From Haloplanus rubicundus (GTDB taxonomy: Archaea > Halobacteriota > Halobacteria > Halobacteriales > Haloferacaceae), in NCBI RefSeq assembly GCF_003342675.1, contig NZ_CP031148.1, positions 1,240,001-1,304,000 of the forward strand: a stretch of DNA of 64,000 nt, in the 5' to 3' direction. The notes beneath the pieces were generated by a model. That model was not told the DNA's origin and searched no databases. It was given only the letters and a program-made list of their open reading frames with translations. Positions 1,853 to 63,726 of this stretch are shown one piece after another. The translations under genes and the position numbers were made by a program. Numbering within the stretch: position 1 is the stretch's first letter; the number at the start of each line of letters is the position of its first letter.

Positions 1853-1968
1853 GGCACGGTGTGAGGCACGGTGTGTGGCATCGCTCAGACTGGGAGGCAC
1901 TCCATCACCAAATCGCTAGACGGCAGCAGGTGTGTGGCACTCCACCCCGACTGATATAATACTAATAG
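1853..1968 (+). repeat. Left copy of 116-bp inverted repeat
   Basis: The 116 bases here match the reverse complement of 3909-4024 without gaps. By eye there are about 17 mismatches, roughly 85% identity. Both copies end on their inner side with the AT-rich string CTGATATAATACTAATAG, after which similarity stops abruptly. The pair encloses about 1.94 kb that contains an orphan IS630-type orfA. They could be long terminal repeats of a non-autonomous element or two inverted MITE copies. No family is assigned. Confidence 0.8.
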
Positions 1969-2203
1969 TACAGCTATCAGTTGCTCTGCCGATAGAGTGT
2001 GATGACGGATCAGAGGGGACCCCCCATCAAGGGCACAACATGCCGACCGGCCGGCACGGCGGCCCCGGCGTCGGCGATCACAGGCTGGGGAGGTGCCTAG
2101 TACGTAGACCGGAATAGCGGACCGCTGGGAGCGGGGAACGCTGTCCCGGGTAGCAGCGCATCAATAACCAGCATATAGAAAAGGTTTGAGAATAAGCGTC
2201 TGT

Positions 2204-2758
2204 ATGAGCGAGTCGGTGACGGTTACACGGCGGCTCTCCGAAGCGGAGTTAGACGATCGGCTGCAGGCAGCAAACGAGGGACCACGCATCCGCCGACTTG
2301 GCTTTATCAAAAATCTCTATTGCGGTGATTCGGTTCGGGAGGCAATCGCCCGGGAGGGCTTCTCCAGTTCAACCGGCTATCGATGGCTCAAGGCATGGAA
2401 TGCAGGCGGGATTGCGGCGATGATGCCCGACTATGCTGGTGGGCGGCCGCCAAAACTGTCCAAGGAAGAACGGGAGCGATTTCGAGCGATCATTGAGCGA
2501 GAGCAACCCTGTACCACAACAGAGGTCGTAGAGATTCTTGACACGACCTTTGGGGTCACCTATGCACCGGCGTACCTACCACGGGTACTGGACGAAATCG
2601 GGATTGAGTACGAACCGCCAGACCGCGAGACAGCACCCCGCAAAGCGATCGTAGATGCCATTGAGTGGGATGAAAAAGAACCGGTTCCAACGACAGGGCG
2701 ACACCCCTACGATAGCCCTGAGCACCATTCGACTGCGGGCTGGGTCCTTCGAGAATAG
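2204..2758 (+). CDS. IS630-type transposase OrfA (N-terminal helix-turn-helix half), partner missing
   Basis: 184 aa from ATG 2204 (MSESVTVTRR); an in-frame start 18 bp upstream is less likely. The layout is that of the split DNA-binding half of haloarchaeal IS630-family transposases. A helix-turn-helix lies around REAIAREGFSSSTGYRWLKA, followed by a Gly/Pro linker (GGRPPKLS) and a second winged helix (TTTEVVEILDTTFGVTY). The catalytic DDE half (OrfB), which normally follows and overlaps, is absent: after 2758 no DDE-like frame is found. It is therefore probably an inactive remnant, although it could still bind DNA. Confidence 0.75.
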   Translation: MSESVTVTRRLSEAELDDRLQAANEGPRIRRLGFIKNLYCGDSVREAIAREGFSSSTGYRWLKAWNAGGIAAMMPDYAGGRPPKLSKEERERFRAIIEREQPCTTTEVVEILDTTFGVTYAPAYLPRVLDEIGIEYEPPDRETAPRKAIVDAIEWDEKEPVPTTGRHPYDSPEHHSTAGWVLRE

Positions 2759-3908
2759 TGTGTCCCAATCAATTTCTATTCCAGATATTTTTTATTTCGC
2801 TGAGTGGTCAATTTACTGAACTGCGTATCAGTTATATCAATTACATATTTGGCGTTTGCGTGCGATCGTCCCATTTGAACCGCGAGCATCACACATGTAC
2901 CCGCATCCGCACCTACCGGAATGGCTGGCATGAGATAGTTTGACAGGGGTCACGGATGATGGGGCGACCTCTCCGGTAACGATCCGGGTCGAGTCGATGA
3001 GATGCCTGTCGGTGGAGTGGTGGATCGCTTCGTCGGTGTGCATGTAGAACACACGAGACGCTGTCTGGTCGCCACCACTCGGGAGAGGAGGTCGCTCCGA
3101 GACTGACGATCCGGTCACGCAGACACGTAGCAACACTTCCGGGTGCATCATTCCGACATCGATGGGCCCCGTCACAAGGAGGGGAGCCGACGTAATCCAT
3201 CCATCGGTCTCTCTGTTGTATCGGGGTGGGTTGAGTGTGTCTCCCAACACTCCACTGCTGCGTCCACCTACCGTGGTCCGAGCTACTGTCTCTCACCGAC
3301 AGGTCCGATACGCTGCTTGAGCCAACTGGTCACTGTCGTGGTCCGGTCTCGACTTGATGTCGCTGCGTGCTCCCACCAGTTTGTAGGCCGAGTCGTGACG
3401 CCGCGCTCGTCGCCGCGGCCGCGGTCCACCCAGCGCCCGACTTGGGCGAACACAGCAACACTGACCATGGAGCCGATGTGTCGCTCCCCGATCAATGATC
3501 GCGACCATCTTCCCGCGCCCGGTAGCCTGGTCAGCACTCGGGGGTGCTGTGGTCCGCGGGGTGTTCCGAGCTGATGTTGCTTCGGACTTGGGACGGTCGT
3601 GAGACGTCCGCTTCGGAACGCGGACACAGAAGCCATGCGTCTCGATCGATCGCTGGTGTCCCACCGTTGTCGGTGCAGTGATGTTCGTTGATTTTGGAGG
3701 CCTGTCGGTCCGGCCACACTATCGGTTTCACCAACACGGTTGGTCGGTATCGACGAGGGTCTAGTATCGTGGTGGGAGCCAAGCCACAGACAGTTTTTGC
3801 TAGGGCCCTCTCTGTTGGTGTCCCAGCTAAGAGCCGCCGGTGGTGAGGTACTTGGGCCCCTCCTGGGCGGCCCGAGTGGCTGGTGGCAACTACTGGTGTT
3901 ACGCATGG
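2759..3908. other. 1.15-kb gene-poor stretch inside the inverted repeats
   Basis: No credible gene is visible. The open frames present (for example minus 3283-3945) are Arg/Ser/Pro/His-rich, lack the acidic character of haloarchaeal proteins and overlap several equally open frames. Base composition is GC-rich like coding DNA, so this may be a decayed gene. No family could be recognised on either strand. Confidence 0.6.
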
Positions 3909-4024
3909 CTATTAGTATTATATCAGTCGGTGCTGAGTGCCACACACCTGCTGCCGTTTAGCGATTAGGCAGGGGCATGCCGCCCAGTCTGAGCGGTGCT
4001 GCCCACCGTGCCTCACACCATGCC
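3909..4024 (-). repeat. Right copy of 116-bp inverted repeat
   Basis: This is the reverse-complement partner of 1853-1968 and has the same length of 116 bp. It begins at its inner side with CTATTAGTATTATATCAG and ends near CCTCACACCATGCC. The equal length, sharp edges and inverted orientation argue for a mobile-element boundary rather than chance similarity. Confidence 0.8.
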
Positions 4025-4779
4025 GTTCGGTGTTGATGCTGGGGGGCATACCAACGATACGGGATCTAGACGACGCCGTCTCTTGTCGATGATTGCTGTG
4101 CTTACGATACCGGTTAGATCTGAGGTAGAGATGGGGATGGTGCCTCTCTGCGAAGCGTTCCGAGCCCTGCGTAAGACTCCCTTGGACCCTCCATGAGAAA
4201 CTCACGAGCGCCTCACGCAGACCTTTTGTGTCCCCTTCGGGACTCTTCCACGTCCCTTCTTCATGGGCAACTACTACCTCTCGTGATCGAAGACTATACT
4301 GGTCATCGTCGTCATCGCAAGCCCATCGGTAGTGGTGCCACAGGTAATCTTCATCCCCGCTCCCCAGGAGTGGTCCTGCGAGGAACCTGCGGCCGAGATG
4401 AACGTGACTGCAGATGTCTTGGCTGTGGTCCGGGACCTGGTCTAGAATGGTCATCGACCACTCCTCTGAGCGGTCCCCACAGAGACGACCACGTGCCGTA
4501 GTGATCCCATCTCAGTCTTAGGAGCGGGGATCACTTGGGGTAGTTTTGCTCCCGATCGTCGGATGGACGAGATTGGGAGCGGGGTCGTCCGGAGTCCACT
4601 CTTGATTGTTTGTTGATGGGGCCAAACGAGAGAATCGCATGGGGTGGGCGAGTGTGCAAGCGGTGTGTCTCTAGGAAACAAGCAGCGGTTCTTGAGACAG
4701 CTATCCGAATCTATGGCTCACGCTTCGGTGGTCTCCACCAGTAGTAGGACAGGGATAGTTGAGGTGTTCTCTTGTTTCT
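4025..4779. other. Gene-poor stretch before the tandem array
   Basis: No convincing coding frame, RNA gene or known IS end was found in these 755 bp. Short open frames on both strands are composition-driven. Confidence 0.5.
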
Positions 4780-5060
4780 GTCTGGGTGGAGAGTTGGCTG
4801 GATCTTGTCTTCGTCTGGGTGGAGAGTTGGCTGGATCTTGTCTTCGTCTGGGTGGAGAGTTGGCTGGATCTTGTCTTCGTCTGGGTGGAGAGTTGGCTGG
4901 ATCTTGTCTTCGTCTGGGTGGAGAGTTGGCTGGATCTTGTCTTCGTCTGGGTGGAGAGTTGGCTGGATCTTGTCTTCGTCTGGGTGGAGAGTTGGCTGGA
5001 TCTTGTCTTCGTCTGGGTGGAGAGTTGGCTGGATCTTGTCTTCGTCTGGGTGAAGATCTG
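4780..5060. repeat. 33-bp tandem repeat array, eight identical copies plus a degenerate ninth
   Basis: The unit, beginning GTCTGGGTGGAGAGTTGG, recurs every 33 bp at 4780, 4813, 4846, 4879, 4912, 4945, 4978 and 5011 without visible change. A diverged copy starts at 5044, and more decayed relatives (CTTGGTGGAGAGCTGGCTG and similar) extend to about 5190. Because 33 is a multiple of three, every frame stays open across the array. On the minus strand this would encode an 11-residue repeat (DEDKIQPTLHP) within a 253-codon open frame (5472 to 4711). There are no spacers, so it is not a CRISPR array. It looks like a minisatellite or iteron-like array; function is unknown. Confidence 0.93.
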
Positions 5061-5190
5061 GCTGACCTATCGTCGCCTTGGTGAGGGATCCCTTGTCTCT
5101 GTCTTGGTGGAGAGCTGGCTGAATCCCCCTCGCTATCTTGATGAAAGGTTGTCGCTGTCCCAATCCTGTCTTGGTGGACATTTGTCCCCC

Positions 5191-5673: not shown

Positions 5674-7983
5674 ATGGCAACAACTGACGATTCGGACTCC
5701 CAGCTCGGAATCGGTATTCGTCCCCCGATCGTTGAGGAGACCAAATTCGACCGCGAGAAGGTCGTTTTCGTCAAAGTCCCTGCGTCGATGAAAAGTACCT
5801 TCGACTCCGGGCCAACGAAAGGCACGCTCGCACTTGCAGACATCTTCGCGAAAACCCAAACCGAGGTTGACGACGTTGAACAGTTTACCTGGCCCGTCGC
5901 TGACGGGCTGATGTATGCTTTCGGTGCATACAGCTCGACGGTCCAATCGACGACACAGAAGAGAGTACAACCCAGCGGAGCAGACGGTGAACCGCTTCCA
6001 GAGCCGCTACAAACGGTCTATGAGACACTAAGTATTGAGTTGCCGGACGCACTCAAGATACGTATCGGTACACTCCCGCTGGGACTTTTCGGGTCGTCGC
6101 CAGCGCTTGGAACACGACTTGTGATGGAGGATAAAAATCAGAAGCCTGCTGGTCGCGGAAAAGTGTCCGAGGCGGACGCAAACGCGCTTTTCGAAGATCT
6201 TGCCGGAGAACCGTTCCTCTATCACGTGCTATACCGCCAGTCGAGCGGGCTCCCAGAAAGCAACGAGTATCAGGTTACCGTTCGGATCTTCCTGTTCAAT
6301 CCGAAATATAAGATCAGCACTGAAAGTGAATACGCCCGCTGTCTTCGGTTCGGTCGAGAATGTGACCCTGCTGACTCATTTGCGGACCTTGGAGTCTCAT
6401 CGAGTCTCGCTGTAATTGATGACGGGTATAACGTCTCGTGGCTTGATGATGATGTAGTGATGCCCACTCGGGAGAGCGGGCTCCCGAATTTTACCGCGGG
6501 ACAATCGCTTATCACCGGCAAAAGGGAGTTCACAAAGATGCAGCGAGGTCAGTACGGTGCCTCCGATCTGCTTGAGGATCGCTGTGCGTATACGAGCCTC
6601 CTTGCTCGGGAGATCGATCTCGAACACTACGTCGGACTCGGTACAATCGATCCGGGCGTCGATCCTTGGCAAAAGGCCCCGCAGGCGATCGGCTTGGATA
6701 TTGACGATATCGGTGCCGATCCCGAAGAACTGCTCCCGGAAAAAATGACAATCGGCGTCAATGCACCAATAGAGGATAGCGAGTTTGATCAAGCCCTAAC
6801 GACTGCCAACGACGGCAGTAAAGCACACCGGGAAGCAATCAAACATGTCGCCATTGCCTTCCAAAGCGAAGGGTACGACGTCAGGGTCGTCGTCCAAGAT
6901 ACAAGGTCGCGTCCAGACCTATGGGTCCGTCGTGATGATGGCGAAATCTTCGCCGTCGAAGTCGAATGCCAAACGAGATCTAAACCTGCGAGCGTCTATA
7001 CGAATCTCATCCGGCAGGCTGTCTGGGGATATAAGACTATCTGCGTAATGGTAGCGCAAAAAGATGATGAAGGGAATACTGAATCACTCGATACGCTCGG
7101 CACATGGGCGCTTAACAGCCTTGCAATCCCGATGAAACATCGTGATCCAACCAAAACACAGCTTCACAACGGTACAGGGACGATAGTTGTCGACGGCAAA
7201 ACGATGCTGTTGCCTGAAGGGGTCTCTGAATCAAACTGGTGGTTAACCTGTGATTCCGAGTTTCTACTCGTTCACGATGGCGAAATACTCGCACGCGGGG
7301 ACGCGACGGAGCAGTTCAAGGAATTTGAGTTCAATCTCCCGCGATACTACGAGGAAGACGACCACTACGTCGTCGAAAACGAATATGGGAAAACCGTCCA
7401 GACATACGAAGACGAATCAGACATCGAAAACACCAAAATACGCCCGTGCCATCGGCCGGTCGATCTGAGTTATCTTCGATTCGTGGAGGCGCTCTACTGT
7501 TATGATCCGGACACCAAAGAACTCGTCCAACAAGAGATGACCGCGCAGTGGGACGTCGAACAGGCCTCGACCCGAAACGAAAAAAGTCATCAGCAGGCGT
7601 TTGAGGCGTTCCTCGTCGAACACGAAAACGACGAGCCGATCCTCGAGCGGGAGTGCCGACCATTTATCAAAGACTGGATCGCGCAGCTCAGCACTCACGA
7701 TCATCCGGGAAATAATATCTTCGGAAACTACAGAAAAGATTACTATCCACGCAAGCGGATCTCAACGGAATTTGGAATGGAGCCTAGCTATCCTGGTATC
7801 TCATTCCGCTATCCACGCGGGCTCGTCTCCCTAGACCTGCCTGGACTCGACACTAGGCCAATCTTCCCCGATCGCTGGAACATCGCTTCTGAAGACGTGC
7901 TCCGGGAGCCGCTGATCTACGGGCTCGATCATCGGAGTGAAGTTGAATCGAAGACAGCAGATGGTTTGGAGACCGATATTTGA
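5674..7983 (+). CDS. Large haloarchaeal protein with PD-(D/E)XK nuclease-like core (paralogue of 61444-63726)
   Basis: This 769-aa soluble, acidic protein has no named family that I recognise. A nuclease-like core is visible: R-P-D415 in SRPDLWV, then E429-V-E431 in VEVE, followed by SKPASVYTNLIRQAV. This is the D(x13)ExE layout of a PD-(D/E)XK fold, with Glu instead of the usual Lys. The same residues, with identical 14-residue spacing, occur in the 760-aa protein at the other end of the window. Shared blocks are collinear along both chains: YQVTVRIFLFNPKY, SNWW, NLPRY and YPRGLVSLDLP. The N-terminal 400 residues have no transmembrane segment or signal peptide. A small ORF follows 38 bp downstream. 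It may be a DNA-processing factor of an integrated element or plasmid; this is inference only. Confidence 0.85.
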   Translation: MATTDDSDSQLGIGIRPPIVEETKFDREKVVFVKVPASMKSTFDSGPTKGTLALADIFAKTQTEVDDVEQFTWPVADGLMYAFGAYSSTVQSTTQKRVQPSGADGEPLPEPLQTVYETLSIELPDALKIRIGTLPLGLFGSSPALGTRLVMEDKNQKPAGRGKVSEADANALFEDLAGEPFLYHVLYRQSSGLPESNEYQVTVRIFLFNPKYKISTESEYARCLRFGRECDPADSFADLGVSSSLAVIDDGYNVSWLDDDVVMPTRESGLPNFTAGQSLITGKREFTKMQRGQYGASDLLEDRCAYTSLLAREIDLEHYVGLGTIDPGVDPWQKAPQAIGLDIDDIGADPEELLPEKMTIGVNAPIEDSEFDQALTTANDGSKAHREAIKHVAIAFQSEGYDVRVVVQDTRSRPDLWVRRDDGEIFAVEVECQTRSKPASVYTNLIRQAVWGYKTICVMVAQKDDEGNTESLDTLGTWALNSLAIPMKHRDPTKTQLHNGTGTIVVDGKTMLLPEGVSESNWWLTCDSEFLLVHDGEILARGDATEQFKEFEFNLPRYYEEDDHYVVENEYGKTVQTYEDESDIENTKIRPCHRPVDLSYLRFVEALYCYDPDTKELVQQEMTAQWDVEQASTRNEKSHQQAFEAFLVEHENDEPILERECRPFIKDWIAQLSTHDHPGNNIFGNYRKDYYPRKRISTEFGMEPSYPGISFRYPRGLVSLDLPGLDTRPIFPDRWNIASEDVLREPLIYGLDHRSEVESKTADGLETDI

Positions 7984-8020: not shown

Positions 8021-8404
8021 ATGACCGACCAAACTGCTCCCAACAGCTCGGCTGGTAAGACAGTTACTGTCTCTCAGGACGATGAACTACGGTTGAACGC
8101 AGGCGTGTACCAGCCACATTTCACCAATACAGAGTACGCTCGCCTCGGGACACACCCGAACTTGGATCTGATTTTCGTGCGACCGGTAACCGTTGAGACT
8201 GGGGACCCACCTAAGGAGGTTACCGAGTTCGCCTACAAAATAGATGATACCCGCTATACCGGCGAAATAACTTGTCGGCGGTTTCTCCAGCAACATAACT
8301 ACCACCATACGACCACAACCCGGTACGTTGCGGAGTGGTGGCCTGAACCGGCTGTTCTGTGTATTGACCTTACTGATCCGGCTCCGATGAAAGAGAATCC
8401 TTGA
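8021..8404 (+). CDS. Small uncharacterised protein downstream of the PD-(D/E)XK-like gene
   Basis: 127 aa, acidic, with a polar low-complexity N-terminus (MTDQTAPNSSAGKTV) and a compact mixed alpha/beta-looking body (LDLIFVRPVTV, YKIDDTRYTGEITCRRFLQ). There is no signal peptide or membrane segment. It follows the 769-aa gene by 38 bp on the same strand, so co-transcription is likely. I do not recognise a family. Downstream lies a tnpB fragment, so the original gene order may have been cut here. Confidence 0.6.
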   Translation: MTDQTAPNSSAGKTVTVSQDDELRLNAGVYQPHFTNTEYARLGTHPNLDLIFVRPVTVETGDPPKEVTEFAYKIDDTRYTGEITCRRFLQQHNYHHTTTTRYVAEWWPEPAVLCIDLTDPAPMKENP

Positions 8405-10729: not shown

Positions 10730-11170
10730 TTAGGCGGACTCGTCACGAAAGCGTTCGATGAGGTGCTCATACCCGTCTTCGTCCTCGAACACGTCATAGT
10801 CGTCATCAGCACCAACGAGGAGAATGACAGTCCGATTACTGTTGTTGTCGAGGTCTTTGGCGGCGGCGATAGCGTATGCGTCTCCGATAGCTGGGCTGTA
10901 CGTGGCTTTCACGTCTGCCGCAGTTTCCCACAGGGGGTCGACGTTGTATTCGGTCACACCTATATCTCGGAGGGCATCAATATGGGTATCAGCCTGTTCG
11001 ACAGATGTTCTTCGGGTGGTGATGTACCGGAATTCCGCGAGGTTGATCGTGGCGATGTATCCGTCGCGTTCGCCGTCGTACACGCGGTCAAGCCAGCGTT
11101 CGACCTCGCTTGCGCCCGGTTCGTCAAAGGAAAAGGCGAGCAGTGCCTCGGCATCGAAGACGATCGTCAT
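10730..11170 (-). CDS. PIN-domain toxin (VapC-like)
   Basis: 146 aa PIN-fold ribonuclease of a type II toxin-antitoxin pair. Acidic active-site positions are visible: D6 in IVFDAEALLAF, a Glu in NLAEFRYI, and the Asp in PAIGDAYAIAAA. These coordinate metal for RNA cleavage in this family. It overlaps the upstream AbrB-type antitoxin gene by 4 bp (ATGA-type junction at 11167-11170), so translation is coupled. The unusually acidic C-terminal tail (VGADDDYDVFEDEDGYEHL) is haloarchaeal in character. The substrate RNA is unknown. Confidence 0.88.
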   Translation of the reverse strand: MTIVFDAEALLAFSFDEPGASEVERWLDRVYDGERDGYIATINLAEFRYITTRRTSVEQADTHIDALRDIGVTEYNVDPLWETAADVKATYSPAIGDAYAIAAAKDLDNNSNRTVILLVGADDDYDVFEDEDGYEHLIERFRDESA

Positions 11171-11466
11171 TTATCCTGCTGCGACAGTTCGTACTTCTCG
11201 TCGGTCTGGTTCTTGTCTCGCTCTCGTTCGGCACGAAGCTGTTCCGTGGCCGACTGCGTTTGCTCTTGCTCATCTTCAGATGCAAGTGCGCCCCGAAGCT
11301 CAGCCGGACGCTTGACCGGCCGGACCACGATCTCGCCCTGTTCATTCTCGACGAATCGGACCCGGCCTGGGGTGTCAATATGCAGTTTGTCACGAAACTC
11401 CTTCGGGATCGTTGCTTGCCCCTTGCTGGTGACCGTTACGGTCGTCCCGTCTTCAGACTCGCTCAT
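11167..11466 (-). CDS. AbrB/SpoVT-type antitoxin
   Basis: 99 aa. The swapped-hairpin AbrB domain is at residues 8-50, including VTSKGQATIPKEFRDKL and the DTPGRVRF strand. The rest is a charged, probably helical tail (EDEQEQTQSATEQL) that would wrap the PIN toxin encoded next to it. It probably binds its own promoter as antitoxin alone or with the toxin. It is closely related in its core to the antitoxin at 14360 (SKGQATIPKEL, DTPGKV). Confidence 0.9.
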   Translation of the reverse strand: MSESEDGTTVTVTSKGQATIPKEFRDKLHIDTPGRVRFVENEQGEIVVRPVKRPAELRGALASEDEQEQTQSATEQLRAERERDKNQTDEKYELSQQDK

Positions 11467-11483
11467 GTGTAATGAGGGTTCTC

Positions 11484-11512
11484 GGTAATACTTTAATCTT
11501 TGTAATACTCTT
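11484..11512 (-). promoter_or_regulatory. Promoter/operator of the AbrB-PIN pair
   Basis: Upstream of the antitoxin start the sequence carries two direct copies of GGTAATACT/TGTAATACT, 16-17 bp apart, around a TTTAAT TATA-like core. Direct repeats at this spacing fit an AbrB-fold repressor binding on one DNA face. The assignment rests on position and repeat pattern only. Confidence 0.4.
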
Positions 11513-11563
11513 CTGAACTTGCGGAGGAAGAGGCTGTGTGCAGCAGAAAACGCAACTCATCGC

Positions 11564-11983
11564 TCAGTAGGTCTGGATGTGGGCGACGGTGCCCTCATAC
11601 TCACTCCCATCTAACTCCTGCAAGAGATTCCCATCGGCGGTGTAGGCTATCCCATCCCGTTCGACGGCGAGTGCGACGTAGGCAGCGTCGTAGGCCGTGA
11701 TGTCAACGGTGTTCGCGATCTCCGCGATGGGGCCGACTGATCCGAACGAAACGAGTTCGATACCGTAGTTGTCAAGCGAGTTTGCGGCTTCATGGAGTCG
11801 CTCGCCATCGTAGTGGCCGCTGTACTTGAGTGCATTGACCGCCTCGAAAGGCATGAGCGCCGGTGCGCACAGGTCGTGTTTGCCGTTGAGGAACTCGTCA
11901 CGAAGTGCTCGGGCCTGTTCGTGATGCTGCTCGGGAATGTACCACTTGACGACAGTACTAGTGTCGACGACGACATCGGCCAT
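11564..11983 (-). CDS. vapC: VapC-family PIN toxin
   Basis: 139 aa. The PIN active site shows D7 (VVVDTSTVVKWY), E48 in MPFEAVNALKY, and the DITAYDAAYVALA and YTADGNLL acid positions. This matches a complete VapC ribonuclease. It overlaps the RHH antitoxin by one base (A of the shared TAATG-type junction at 11983), so the pair is one transcription unit. It is distinct in sequence from the PIN toxin at 10730, so the two systems are not recent duplicates. Confidence 0.92.
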   Translation of the reverse strand: MADVVVDTSTVVKWYIPEQHHEQARALRDEFLNGKHDLCAPALMPFEAVNALKYSGHYDGERLHEAANSLDNYGIELVSFGSVGPIAEIANTVDITAYDAAYVALAVERDGIAYTADGNLLQELDGSEYEGTVAHIQTY

Positions 11984-12240
11984 TAGGATCGCTCCTCGCT
12001 ATATCGGGTGTCACGGAATTCACGAATCTGTTCTGCCGTGTTCGTCGTCGCTACCTCGTCGGCGTCGATGACACCGCTCAATCGCTCGCTGGTCGCAACT
12101 GCATGGGCGAGGTTCCGCGATTCCAGACTCTGTAGTTCCTCCTCGATGTGGTCACGGAGCACTGCACTCCAGTTTACGTCATCGTGTTCATCCATCCGTG
12201 CTTTCACTTCGTCGGGGACACGGAAACTGACACTTCCCAT
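11983..12240 (-). CDS. vapB: VapB-like ribbon-helix-helix antitoxin
   Basis: 85 aa. The N-terminal ribbon-helix-helix is visible: SVSFRVPDEVKARMDEHDDVNWSAVLRD split over strand and two helices. The C-terminal region (TNTAEQIREFRDTRYSEERS) is the likely toxin-neutralising peptide. It is encoded directly before vapC. An AT-rich segment just upstream (ATAATACTC...TATTATTAG, about 12245-12275) would hold the promoter and operator. Confidence 0.9.
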   Translation of the reverse strand: MGSVSFRVPDEVKARMDEHDDVNWSAVLRDHIEEELQSLESRNLAHAVATSERLSGVIDADEVATTNTAEQIREFRDTRYSEERS

Positions 12241-61443: not shown

Positions 61444-63726
61444 TTAGTCCTCTTCGTCGAGTTCCCCACTGGCAGTATCGGCAGTATCTGGATTACTTTC
61501 ATCCCCTCCCTGCTTGTGAAACGGCAAATCAGGTGAGCGTAGTCCGGGTGGATACAGGAGCGTGCGATCGCGTATCTTCCGGTCGCTGGCGCTCGGGTCG
61601 TCAACAGCAACAGCGTCGGGGAGCGCTCGCCCAATATGTGTCTTGTTCGGTGGCTCATGGTGTGACCGTACGGCAAACAGCGATTGGCACTCTTCCTGAA
61701 AGGTCGAATACAGTATCGACTCACCGGGCGCTTCCGTGGTGTACGTCTCGACGAACTCTCGCAGACCGCCGCGGAAGCGCTCCGTTGCCGACTCTGCGGT
61801 CCGGTCCCAACTGGCCTGGATGTCGAATTCGACGAGTTCGTCGCCCGACTGATAGTATATGTACACACCCGACAGGCAGTGGAGGTGCCCAGGGACAAAC
61901 GGGGTGTGGACGAGCGTCCACTTATCCAAGAGTTGGCTCCGAGTCCGATAGGTCGCTTTCGTCACACCGTCGGCAGTGACGATGCGATGGGACTCGTCAC
62001 TTTCACTGTACTCGTATCGAGGATTGTCGTATTCGAGGGTACACACCGATTCAGTGGCTGATCCGCTCGCTAGTACCACACCCGTCTTATCACGTAGTGT
62101 GAGTTCACCGGTCGCGTCGAGATACCAGTTGGACTCGTCCCCTTTCGCAGGCACCACGGGAATCTGTCCGGTCGGAAGGTGGACTGTCGCGGTCTGTGTG
62201 TGCAGATGAACTCCAGTATCAGTTACGTCCTTCCATGGCTGGCGAAGCATCTCCGATAGCCGGCGTGCTTTCTGCTGATTCGTCACGACGAATTCGACTG
62301 GCCGGTCTGCTGCGACTGCACGAGCGTAGTTGGTCAGGGGATTTGCAGGCTTCGAGAGACTCGAAAATTCGACTTCGATCGTTCGCACTCTGCCATCGAT
62401 TGGTTGATGTCCGCCATCTGGTATGGACGTGCCATCTTGGGTTTCGATCCAGGCATCGTCACCCTGGCCGCGGAAGTACTCGACGGCGAATCGCAGGAGT
62501 TGATCGTGGCCCTCACTGCCAGTGTTGACGGTCACTCCGGAGGTGTGGTCTGTCGAGGACGACCGACTTGTGTGCCCATGCGAGTGTTCCGTTCCGGGCG
62601 CTTGCCGAATTACTGCGCGCGTCGTGATCACGGGGGCTGCCCGCCCCGGAACGCTGTCCCACGGCGATTCAGTATAATACAACGGCACGACGGCACCGAA
62701 CAAGCGGAGCGTGTAGTCGTTGAGCGGAATTCGGGCGTGAAAGCCGAGCTTCTCGTAGAGTTTATTCGAACTTGGCCGCCCATGGAACAGTGCCCGATAC
62801 TCGGTCGTGCCCGTATAGAGGTCGAGCGCTGTCCGTGAATCTGAACGTTCCATGTACTGCCGTTTGCGCAGCCGTGGTTTCTGATCTTCAGGCTCTAGCG
62901 CTCGCCAATAGAGATGGGATGCCCACAGCCCGGGTGAGGCGAACTCCGAGATTGGCAAGTCGTAGTTCGTCCGGAGGCCAGCGTTCTGCCAGATGTGCTC
63001 GATCGGATGCTGTCTCCCCGTGTCGAGATGCTCACTCTCGTCGCGCCCCGAAGCGATCGCGTAGTTCGGATGAAGGATTGCATACCGGAGTGTCGCGACG
63101 TACTTCGCACGCGACCCGGAACCGACGAGGAGTTGAACGACGAACGGTCGCGCCGTCGCAGCTAAGTGTCTCACCGTTTCGACGAACGGATCATTCCAGT
63201 CGAAGTGGGATTGCCGAAGCGCGCCGTTCGTCTCTAAGAGAACGCGCCCGGTCGTCACCGGCCACATCCGGATCGATCTGAGATCCACATCGCAGAGTTC
63301 GATCCCCAGTTCTTCTGGCAAGTGTTTCGAAGCTACCCCGGCGAGCTTGTCGGTCGTGCTGTCAGGGACGGTCGGCGTCTCCGAGCTATACTCGGATAGC
63401 GACTGTTGGAATGGCACGGCTCGCGAGGCTATCGGGGCCGACTCCAGTCGTGGCGTGATGAAATACTCCAGTTGTTGTTCACCCGAGATGGCAAGCACTT
63501 CAAGCTCTTTGACGTGTGGTGGCTGAGAGAGCCCCTTGATCAGCGTATTCGTCAGCGGGAAGGCTGTCTCCGGCGAGAGTTGATGATCGACAGTGTCACG
63601 TCCCGGTAAGCAGAGTCGAAGCGCCATTTCGCGGCGGGGCTGTTCGCTGAAGACCGGTCCCTCGACTGTTCGTGCTGGCTCCTCAGGTGTGTCGTCTCCG
63701 GTTGGTCGCGATGGGGATTTGCTCAT
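61444..63726 (-). CDS. Large haloarchaeal protein with PD-(D/E)XK nuclease-like core (paralogue of 5674-7983)
   Basis: 760 aa from ATG 63726 (MSKSPSRPTGDDTPEEPART); the 88 codons upstream are open but not haloarchaeal in composition. The core has P436-D437 in PDGGHQP and E451-V-E453 in TIEVEF, then SLSKPANPLTNYARAV. This is the same D-to-E spacing as in the 769-aa protein at 5674, and the same SKPAxxxTNxxRAV continuation. Collinear blocks also match: YVATLRYAILHPNY, SNWYLD, DNPRYEY, IQASWD and YPPGLRSPDLP. There are no membrane segments. Likely an element-borne DNA-processing protein; role unknown. Confidence 0.85.
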   Translation of the reverse strand: MSKSPSRPTGDDTPEEPARTVEGPVFSEQPRREMALRLCLPGRDTVDHQLSPETAFPLTNTLIKGLSQPPHVKELEVLAISGEQQLEYFITPRLESAPIASRAVPFQQSLSEYSSETPTVPDSTTDKLAGVASKHLPEELGIELCDVDLRSIRMWPVTTGRVLLETNGALRQSHFDWNDPFVETVRHLAATARPFVVQLLVGSGSRAKYVATLRYAILHPNYAIASGRDESEHLDTGRQHPIEHIWQNAGLRTNYDLPISEFASPGLWASHLYWRALEPEDQKPRLRKRQYMERSDSRTALDLYTGTTEYRALFHGRPSSNKLYEKLGFHARIPLNDYTLRLFGAVVPLYYTESPWDSVPGRAAPVITTRAVIRQAPGTEHSHGHTSRSSSTDHTSGVTVNTGSEGHDQLLRFAVEYFRGQGDDAWIETQDGTSIPDGGHQPIDGRVRTIEVEFSSLSKPANPLTNYARAVAADRPVEFVVTNQQKARRLSEMLRQPWKDVTDTGVHLHTQTATVHLPTGQIPVVPAKGDESNWYLDATGELTLRDKTGVVLASGSATESVCTLEYDNPRYEYSESDESHRIVTADGVTKATYRTRSQLLDKWTLVHTPFVPGHLHCLSGVYIYYQSGDELVEFDIQASWDRTAESATERFRGGLREFVETYTTEAPGESILYSTFQEECQSLFAVRSHHEPPNKTHIGRALPDAVAVDDPSASDRKIRDRTLLYPPGLRSPDLPFHKQGGDESNPDTADTASGELDEED

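Follow-up and report, generated by a model that had tools for sequence, protein, structure and literature searches.

Two large proteins encoded in the window, the stretch of 64,000 nucleotides of Haloplanus rubicundus DNA analysed here, are by their sequences homologues of the catalytic type within a single haloarchaeal family that is undescribed. Their C-terminal halves are homologous to the tails of haloarchaeal VirD4/TraG-type coupling ATPases, and the motor of these ATPases is missing from both proteins; both points are well supported. It is proposed that each of the two proteins provides the catalytic subunit of a nicking nuclease that has two components, binds repeats and derives from a coupling-protein tail without its motor; this proposal is considered to have about an even chance of being correct. 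An earlier, sequence-only reading of this DNA had reported the two open reading frames, of 769 and 760 aa, and both were found at the coordinates and on the strands claimed:

5674-7983, + strand: P0001, 769 aa, stand-alone catalytic-type subunit
61444-63726, - strand: P0002, 760 aa, second stand-alone catalytic-type subunit

The same reading regarded the two proteins as a pair, collinear over their full length. The collinearity was borne out by profiles: while direct BLASTP of P0001 against P0002 is limited to P0001 residues 377-723 (29% identity, E 1e-24), a 24-member family profile spans nearly all of P0001 (E 2e-234) and matches P0002 at profile positions 1-744 (E 7e-229). The pairing did not hold. 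P0001 and P0002 belong to two different subfamilies, of which they are the catalytic-type subunits, and at other loci the real partner is a tandem paralogue in which the catalytic residues are lost. Comparison of P0001 with its homologues at loci L071 and L072 yielded dN/dS values of 0.14-0.21, indicating purifying selection, and P0001 is therefore not a chance open reading frame. A genome search revealed only two full-length copies in the source genome, P0001 and P0002. Residues R27, E69, R148 and R204 in the N-terminal half are invariant in the stand-alone family. Neither protein has a significant match in Pfam, NCBIfam, PHROGs or PADLOC, and a sequence search of the PDB with the family profile gave no match.

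A profile search of 392 genomes of the order yielded matches in 153 of them, of two kinds. Stand-alone proteins, about 25 in number and ~750-890 aa long, make up the first kind and are confined to the order. In the second, the C-terminal module ends ATPases of ~640, ~1080 and ~1460 aa, which match the Pfam coupling-protein models TraG-D_C, TrwB_AAD_bind and T4SS-DNA_transf; most of the plasmid-borne ones carry annotations of conjugal transfer, DUF87 or primase-like DNA-binding proteins. Outside the order, a search at phylum level added only two more genomes, with proteins of ~890 aa. A search of genome contigs with the three-member P0001 subgroup returned one named record, Halorubrum distributum JCM 10118, and close relatives of P0001 and P0002 were not found in viral contigs. 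In a domain tree, 26 stand-alone domains were cleanly separated from 37 coupling-protein domains (support 0.98), which places the stand-alone proteins in a clade of their own.

The sequence-only reading had also proposed a variant PD-(D/E)XK core in both proteins. Its position is as follows:

6787-7176, + strand: PD-ExE domain of P0001, with H385, P414-D415, E429-x-E431 and N444
62191-62550, - strand: PD-ExE domain of P0002

Residues H385, P414, D415, E429, E431 and N444 are invariant in 63 of 63 domains from stand-alone and coupling proteins, and P414-D415 is likewise kept in all 24 stand-alone proteins. The Glu at the position of the classical Lys, read correctly from the two sequences, is general: E-x-E occurs at strand 3 in all 63 domains and an invariant Lys is absent. 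The nearest Lys, K437, is present in 23 of 24 stand-alone proteins and is not invariant in coupling proteins. It belongs to the SKPA..TN..R motif described earlier, which is real, N444 and R447 both being present in 24/24 stand-alone proteins. An Asp followed by E-V-E exactly 14 residues later is indeed found in P0001 and P0002, but this distance is not a rule for the family, since the spacing between PD and ExE in the 24 stand-alone proteins is 25 residues in ten, 13 in nine, 14 in four and 24 in one.

An AlphaFold model of P0001, based on an alignment of 54 sequences (pLDDT 77.7, pTM 0.74), shows a helix (383-398), three strands (402-405, 416-419 and 425-431), a second helix (438-451) and a further strand (455-460). 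D415 precedes strand 2 in this model and E429 and E431 are located on strand 3, which is the restriction-endonuclease-like order of PD-(D/E)XK enzymes. A model of the domain only, from 63 sequences (pLDDT 79), has an H-E-E-E-H-E core in the same order. The top Foldseek matches of the domain in the PDB are mostly PD-(D/E)XK proteins, led by VRR-NUC 4qbn (probability 1.00) and including EndoMS/NucS, I-Ssp6803I, ACE1, YaeQ, SfsA, AvaII and FAN1, none of which reaches an E value of 0.001. In BFVD, a library of viral models, the full-length model matches RecU, VRR-NUC and MmcB-like proteins, and the best sub-threshold Pfam matches of the domain are the restriction endonuclease families MTES_1575 and AHJR-like (E 0.09). 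Predicted fold, Foldseek matches and absolute conservation thus support a variant PD-(D/E)XK core of the ExE type. With the PD-(D/E)XK superfamily (VRR-NUC, EndoMS/NucS, SfsA, I-Ssp6803I) the two proteins share the predicted fold, the PD and the positions of the acidic pair on strand 3. They differ in having Glu instead of the Lys of (D/E)XK, in two additional invariant residues, a His in the first helix and an Asn in the helix that follows strand 3, and in lacking a significant sequence match to any described family. Because E-x-E replaces (D/E)-x-K, the domain is regarded as a variant with this fold and not as a canonical member. BamHI, a homodimeric restriction enzyme with active site residues D94, E111 and E113, also has ExE without Lys. 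By this analogy the variant is not unprecedented, and D415, E429 and E431 may hold metal ions as in BamHI. The Asp...Glu-x-Glu logic of the active site is shared, whereas P0001 and P0002 are multidomain proteins with a probable dead partner, and a sequence relation to BamHI was not found.

Beyond the nuclease-like domain, P0001 is organized as follows:

residues ~27-207: N-terminal half, alpha/beta with a ferredoxin-like pattern
residues ~376-500: PD-ExE nuclease-like domain
residues ~500-620: beta-rich domain
residues ~631-711: D5/RFX-like winged helix

Residues 366-717 of P0001 align with coupling-protein residues 1057-1440 (hhalign 99.3%, E 8.5e-21), and the alignment with 28 coupling proteins reached 99.5% (E 2.7e-23). 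The aligned tail comprises the ExE domain, the beta-rich domain and the winged helix, the last being identified as Pox_D5 by Pfam in two of the coupling proteins; a Foldseek resemblance of part of the P0001 model to chain M of the RFX5 complex 8zjr is consistent with a winged helix. Only the tail was aligned by hhalign. For the N-terminal halves a probability of 10% was obtained, rising to 26% with more sequences (E 7e-4), and this half of P0001 may also derive from coupling proteins. The suspected link with conjugation is thereby strengthened: VirD4/TraG-type ATPases, e.g. the 1456-aa WP_004594534 encoded on pNG600 of Haloarcula marismortui, have the entire C-terminal half in common with P0001 and P0002, with identical invariant residues. 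These ATPases have a Walker-A motor, whereas the Walker A motif (G-x4-GK[ST]) is absent in 24 of 24 stand-alone proteins, and Pfam detected no motor or relaxase/TrwC domain in P0001 or P0002. Unlike the coupling ATPases, moreover, the stand-alone proteins are usually paired with a dead paralogue.

This paralogue, of ~660-730 aa, adjoins the main gene in tandem at 20 loci, on its upstream or its downstream side depending on the subfamily. The partner is homologous to the main protein over the whole length (hhalign 100%, E 6e-64), while H385, D415, E429, E431 and N444 are all missing in 20 of 20 partners. Main and partner genes co-evolve (Mantel r 0.95 between main-main and partner-partner distances, 0/5000 permutations), overlap by 4 bp at four loci and are both under purifying selection, with dN/dS values of 0.13-0.28 for either. 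A tandem arrangement of an active and a dead subunit is thus well supported by the sequences. At the four P0001-type loci (the window, L071, L072 and L086) there is no full-length partner; these loci carry a C-terminal-only paralogue of ~313-350 aa, located immediately upstream in L071, L072 and L086, and downstream and inverted in the window, as well as a conserved gene for ~127 aa. No partner gene was detectable in the surroundings of P0002. The genes next to P0001 are:

8021-8404, + strand: 127-aa gene, conserved directly 3' of genes of the P0001 type, with 62% identity to its counterpart in L086
8788-9729, - strand: C-terminal-only paralogue, 313 aa (profile E 7e-15), no ExE motif, probably a reduced partner of P0001

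Tandem repeats with a period of 33 and/or 11 bp are located upstream of the operon in 4 of 4 P0001-type loci. The unit sequence changes between these loci and the period is constant. Repeats phased by 11 bp (11, 22, 33 or 44 bp) have a different unit at each locus and a period that is a multiple of 11; an array of another period, at L067, is listed last:

Window 4770-5064: probably iteron-like, a tandem array with 8.9 copies of a 33-bp unit (3 x 11) and 98% matches, located 0.6 kb 5' of P0001
L071 6722-6834 and 7652-7713: 11-bp-phased arrays upstream of the stand-alone gene
L072 399-568 and 1254-1358: 11-bp-phased arrays upstream of the stand-alone gene
L086 14782-14941: 11-bp-phased array upstream of the stand-alone gene
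L085 14118-14508: 22/44-bp arrays, 11-bp-phased, upstream of the stand-alone gene
L067 8329-8690: imperfect 23/46-bp array directly downstream of a main/partner pair

Arrays thus occur at the four P0001-type loci and two other pair loci. In the regions up to 2.5 kb from pairs, 112 kb in total, eight strong arrays were found, compared with five in 588 kb elsewhere (p 2e-4), a post hoc value that is only indicative, because the comparison was made after the first arrays were seen. None was found near 18 coupling-protein genes, no array was detected at P0002, and strong arrays lie within 2.5 kb at only 6 of 24 loci. That the arrays are coding genes was set aside; the repeat peptides are unrelated between loci and a conserved open reading frame across arrays is absent. 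At L069 (14649-15077), an 88-bp unit that contains TAATTACA motifs is present four times, with a spacing of ~113 bp, 0.7 kb downstream of a main/partner pair.

In the proposed nicking mechanism, active and dead subunits would form a heterodimer with one active site. Given one active site per heterodimer, the enzyme would nick one strand instead of breaking both. Its winged helix, together with the dead partner, would position it on repeated DNA beside its own operon, presumably the 11/33-bp-phased arrays at P0001-type loci. The nick would most likely serve to process the DNA of a mobile island or plasmid, in a relaxosome-like manner; this step is the least certain, and it is favoured because the PD-ExE module is fused to a conjugation motor on haloarchaeal plasmids.

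A doubtful but real competitor is a defence nuclease, in which the active/dead pair would recognize and cut viral or plasmid DNA that enters the cell; its target may even be DNA transported by the coupling proteins to which the pair is similar. Pair loci are variable, patchily distributed chromosomal islands, often near sugar-nucleotide genes, with VapBC-like, nucleotidyltransferase-like (MNT/HEPN-like), Orc1/Cdc6, ATPase_2/DUF234, HNH-like and insertion sequence genes as neighbours, several of them named by eye. Tabulation of neighbours, as suggested earlier, revealed a coupling-protein-like ATPase beside P0002 and no recurrent integrase near the stand-alone loci; toxin-antitoxin and insertion sequence neighbours without such an integrase fit defence better than mobilization. 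Two different copies of the stand-alone family in several genomes, the strong purifying selection and the failure to find a dead partner by tblastn on plasmids of the tested collection also agree with defence. Against it, there was no PADLOC match, operon-adjacent repeats are unexpected for a pure defence nuclease, and coupling proteins are no rarer in carriers (15/22, a few of these matches being the stand-alone gene itself) than in the background (152/243), with no signal of mutual exclusion. A DNA-processing role by nicking is modestly preferred over defence.

Several further features of these surroundings were observed. The 1378-aa coupling-protein-like ATPase beside P0002 (L021 5974-10110, window coordinates 65974-70110, just beyond the end of the window) has no ExE tail, and the next protein contains an HBD domain of the NrS-1 polymerase type (L021 10362-11969); the source genome has three such tail-less ATPases in all. 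Window positions 1853-4024 hold an apparent insertion sequence with inverted ends of ~116 bp that are 85% alike, containing a gene of ~190 aa (2186-2758) the start of which looks by eye like an IS630-type helix-turn-helix. L071, L072 and L086 have an end related to that of this element upstream of their P0001-type operons. Two consecutive VapBC-like toxin-antitoxin gene pairs, recognized by eye, lie near P0001 at 10730-12240. Divergent genes upstream of pairs (L024 7582-8352, L079 4941-6101, L084 6351-7157) belong to no Pfam family and resemble by eye a winged-helix regulator that has transmembrane helices at its C-terminus. Integration linked to a tRNA was rejected, as there is no tRNA in the window.

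It is improbable that the proteins are non-catalytic regulators or exclusion factors, motorless coupling-protein mimics that would bind transfer DNA or the transfer machine and block or modulate transfer. The C-terminal half homologous to coupling-protein tails, the possibly related N-terminal half and the presence of coupling proteins in some carriers would suit such a role, but the invariance of H, PD, ExE and N in the main protein, together with their loss in the partner, would be difficult to account for in the absence of catalysis. A TnsA-like transposition or integration enzyme of the islands, with the arrays as element ends, is very improbable: PD-(D/E)XK enzymes do act in transposition and insertion sequence ends lie upstream of 4/4 P0001-type loci, but paired ends or target duplications were not found, DNA similarity of related loci stops near the gene cassette without common termini, and a recombinase partner is lacking.

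The nicking reading bears on the question of how archaea prepare DNA for transfer. No recognizable relaxase has been reported in archaeal conjugative plasmids and HerA-NurA was proposed to supply the ssDNA of archaeal donor cells (PMC9905601), while the existence of unknown archaeal relaxases was suggested (PMC3158045). Among 25 genomes, nearly all picked for carrying tail-bearing coupling proteins, TrwC (PF08751) was found in none and the PF03432 relaxase was absent in 22; the weak PF03432 matches in the other three, none of them on a contig with one of the listed coupling proteins, show that some relaxase-like fragments exist. All 33 plasmids found were typed as non-mobilizable. P0001 and P0002 would resemble relaxases of the MOB families in the proposed role only, site-specific nicking beside a conjugation motor; relaxases have an HUH/Tyr domain, of which Pfam found no match in these proteins, and differ in fold and chemistry.

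The shared tail and the dead twin make the stand-alone proteins candidates for an archaeal nicking enzyme or a defence enzyme. A bolder and unlikely extension is that the PD-ExE module is the missing nicking enzyme of haloarchaeal conjugation, fused to the motor on plasmids, so that one chain would combine a coupling protein with a relaxase-like nickase, and acting on chromosomal islands as an active/dead heterodimer that lacks the motor, where it would nick its own arrays for mobilization in trans. A conserved, nuclease-like ExE domain on the tails of coupling ATPases, reused as an active/dead pair, is a concrete candidate for the missing archaeal relaxase, for which residues, partner genes and possible DNA sites can be named. 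Should it be a defence enzyme instead, it would represent a new two-component type that has no entry in the databases searched.
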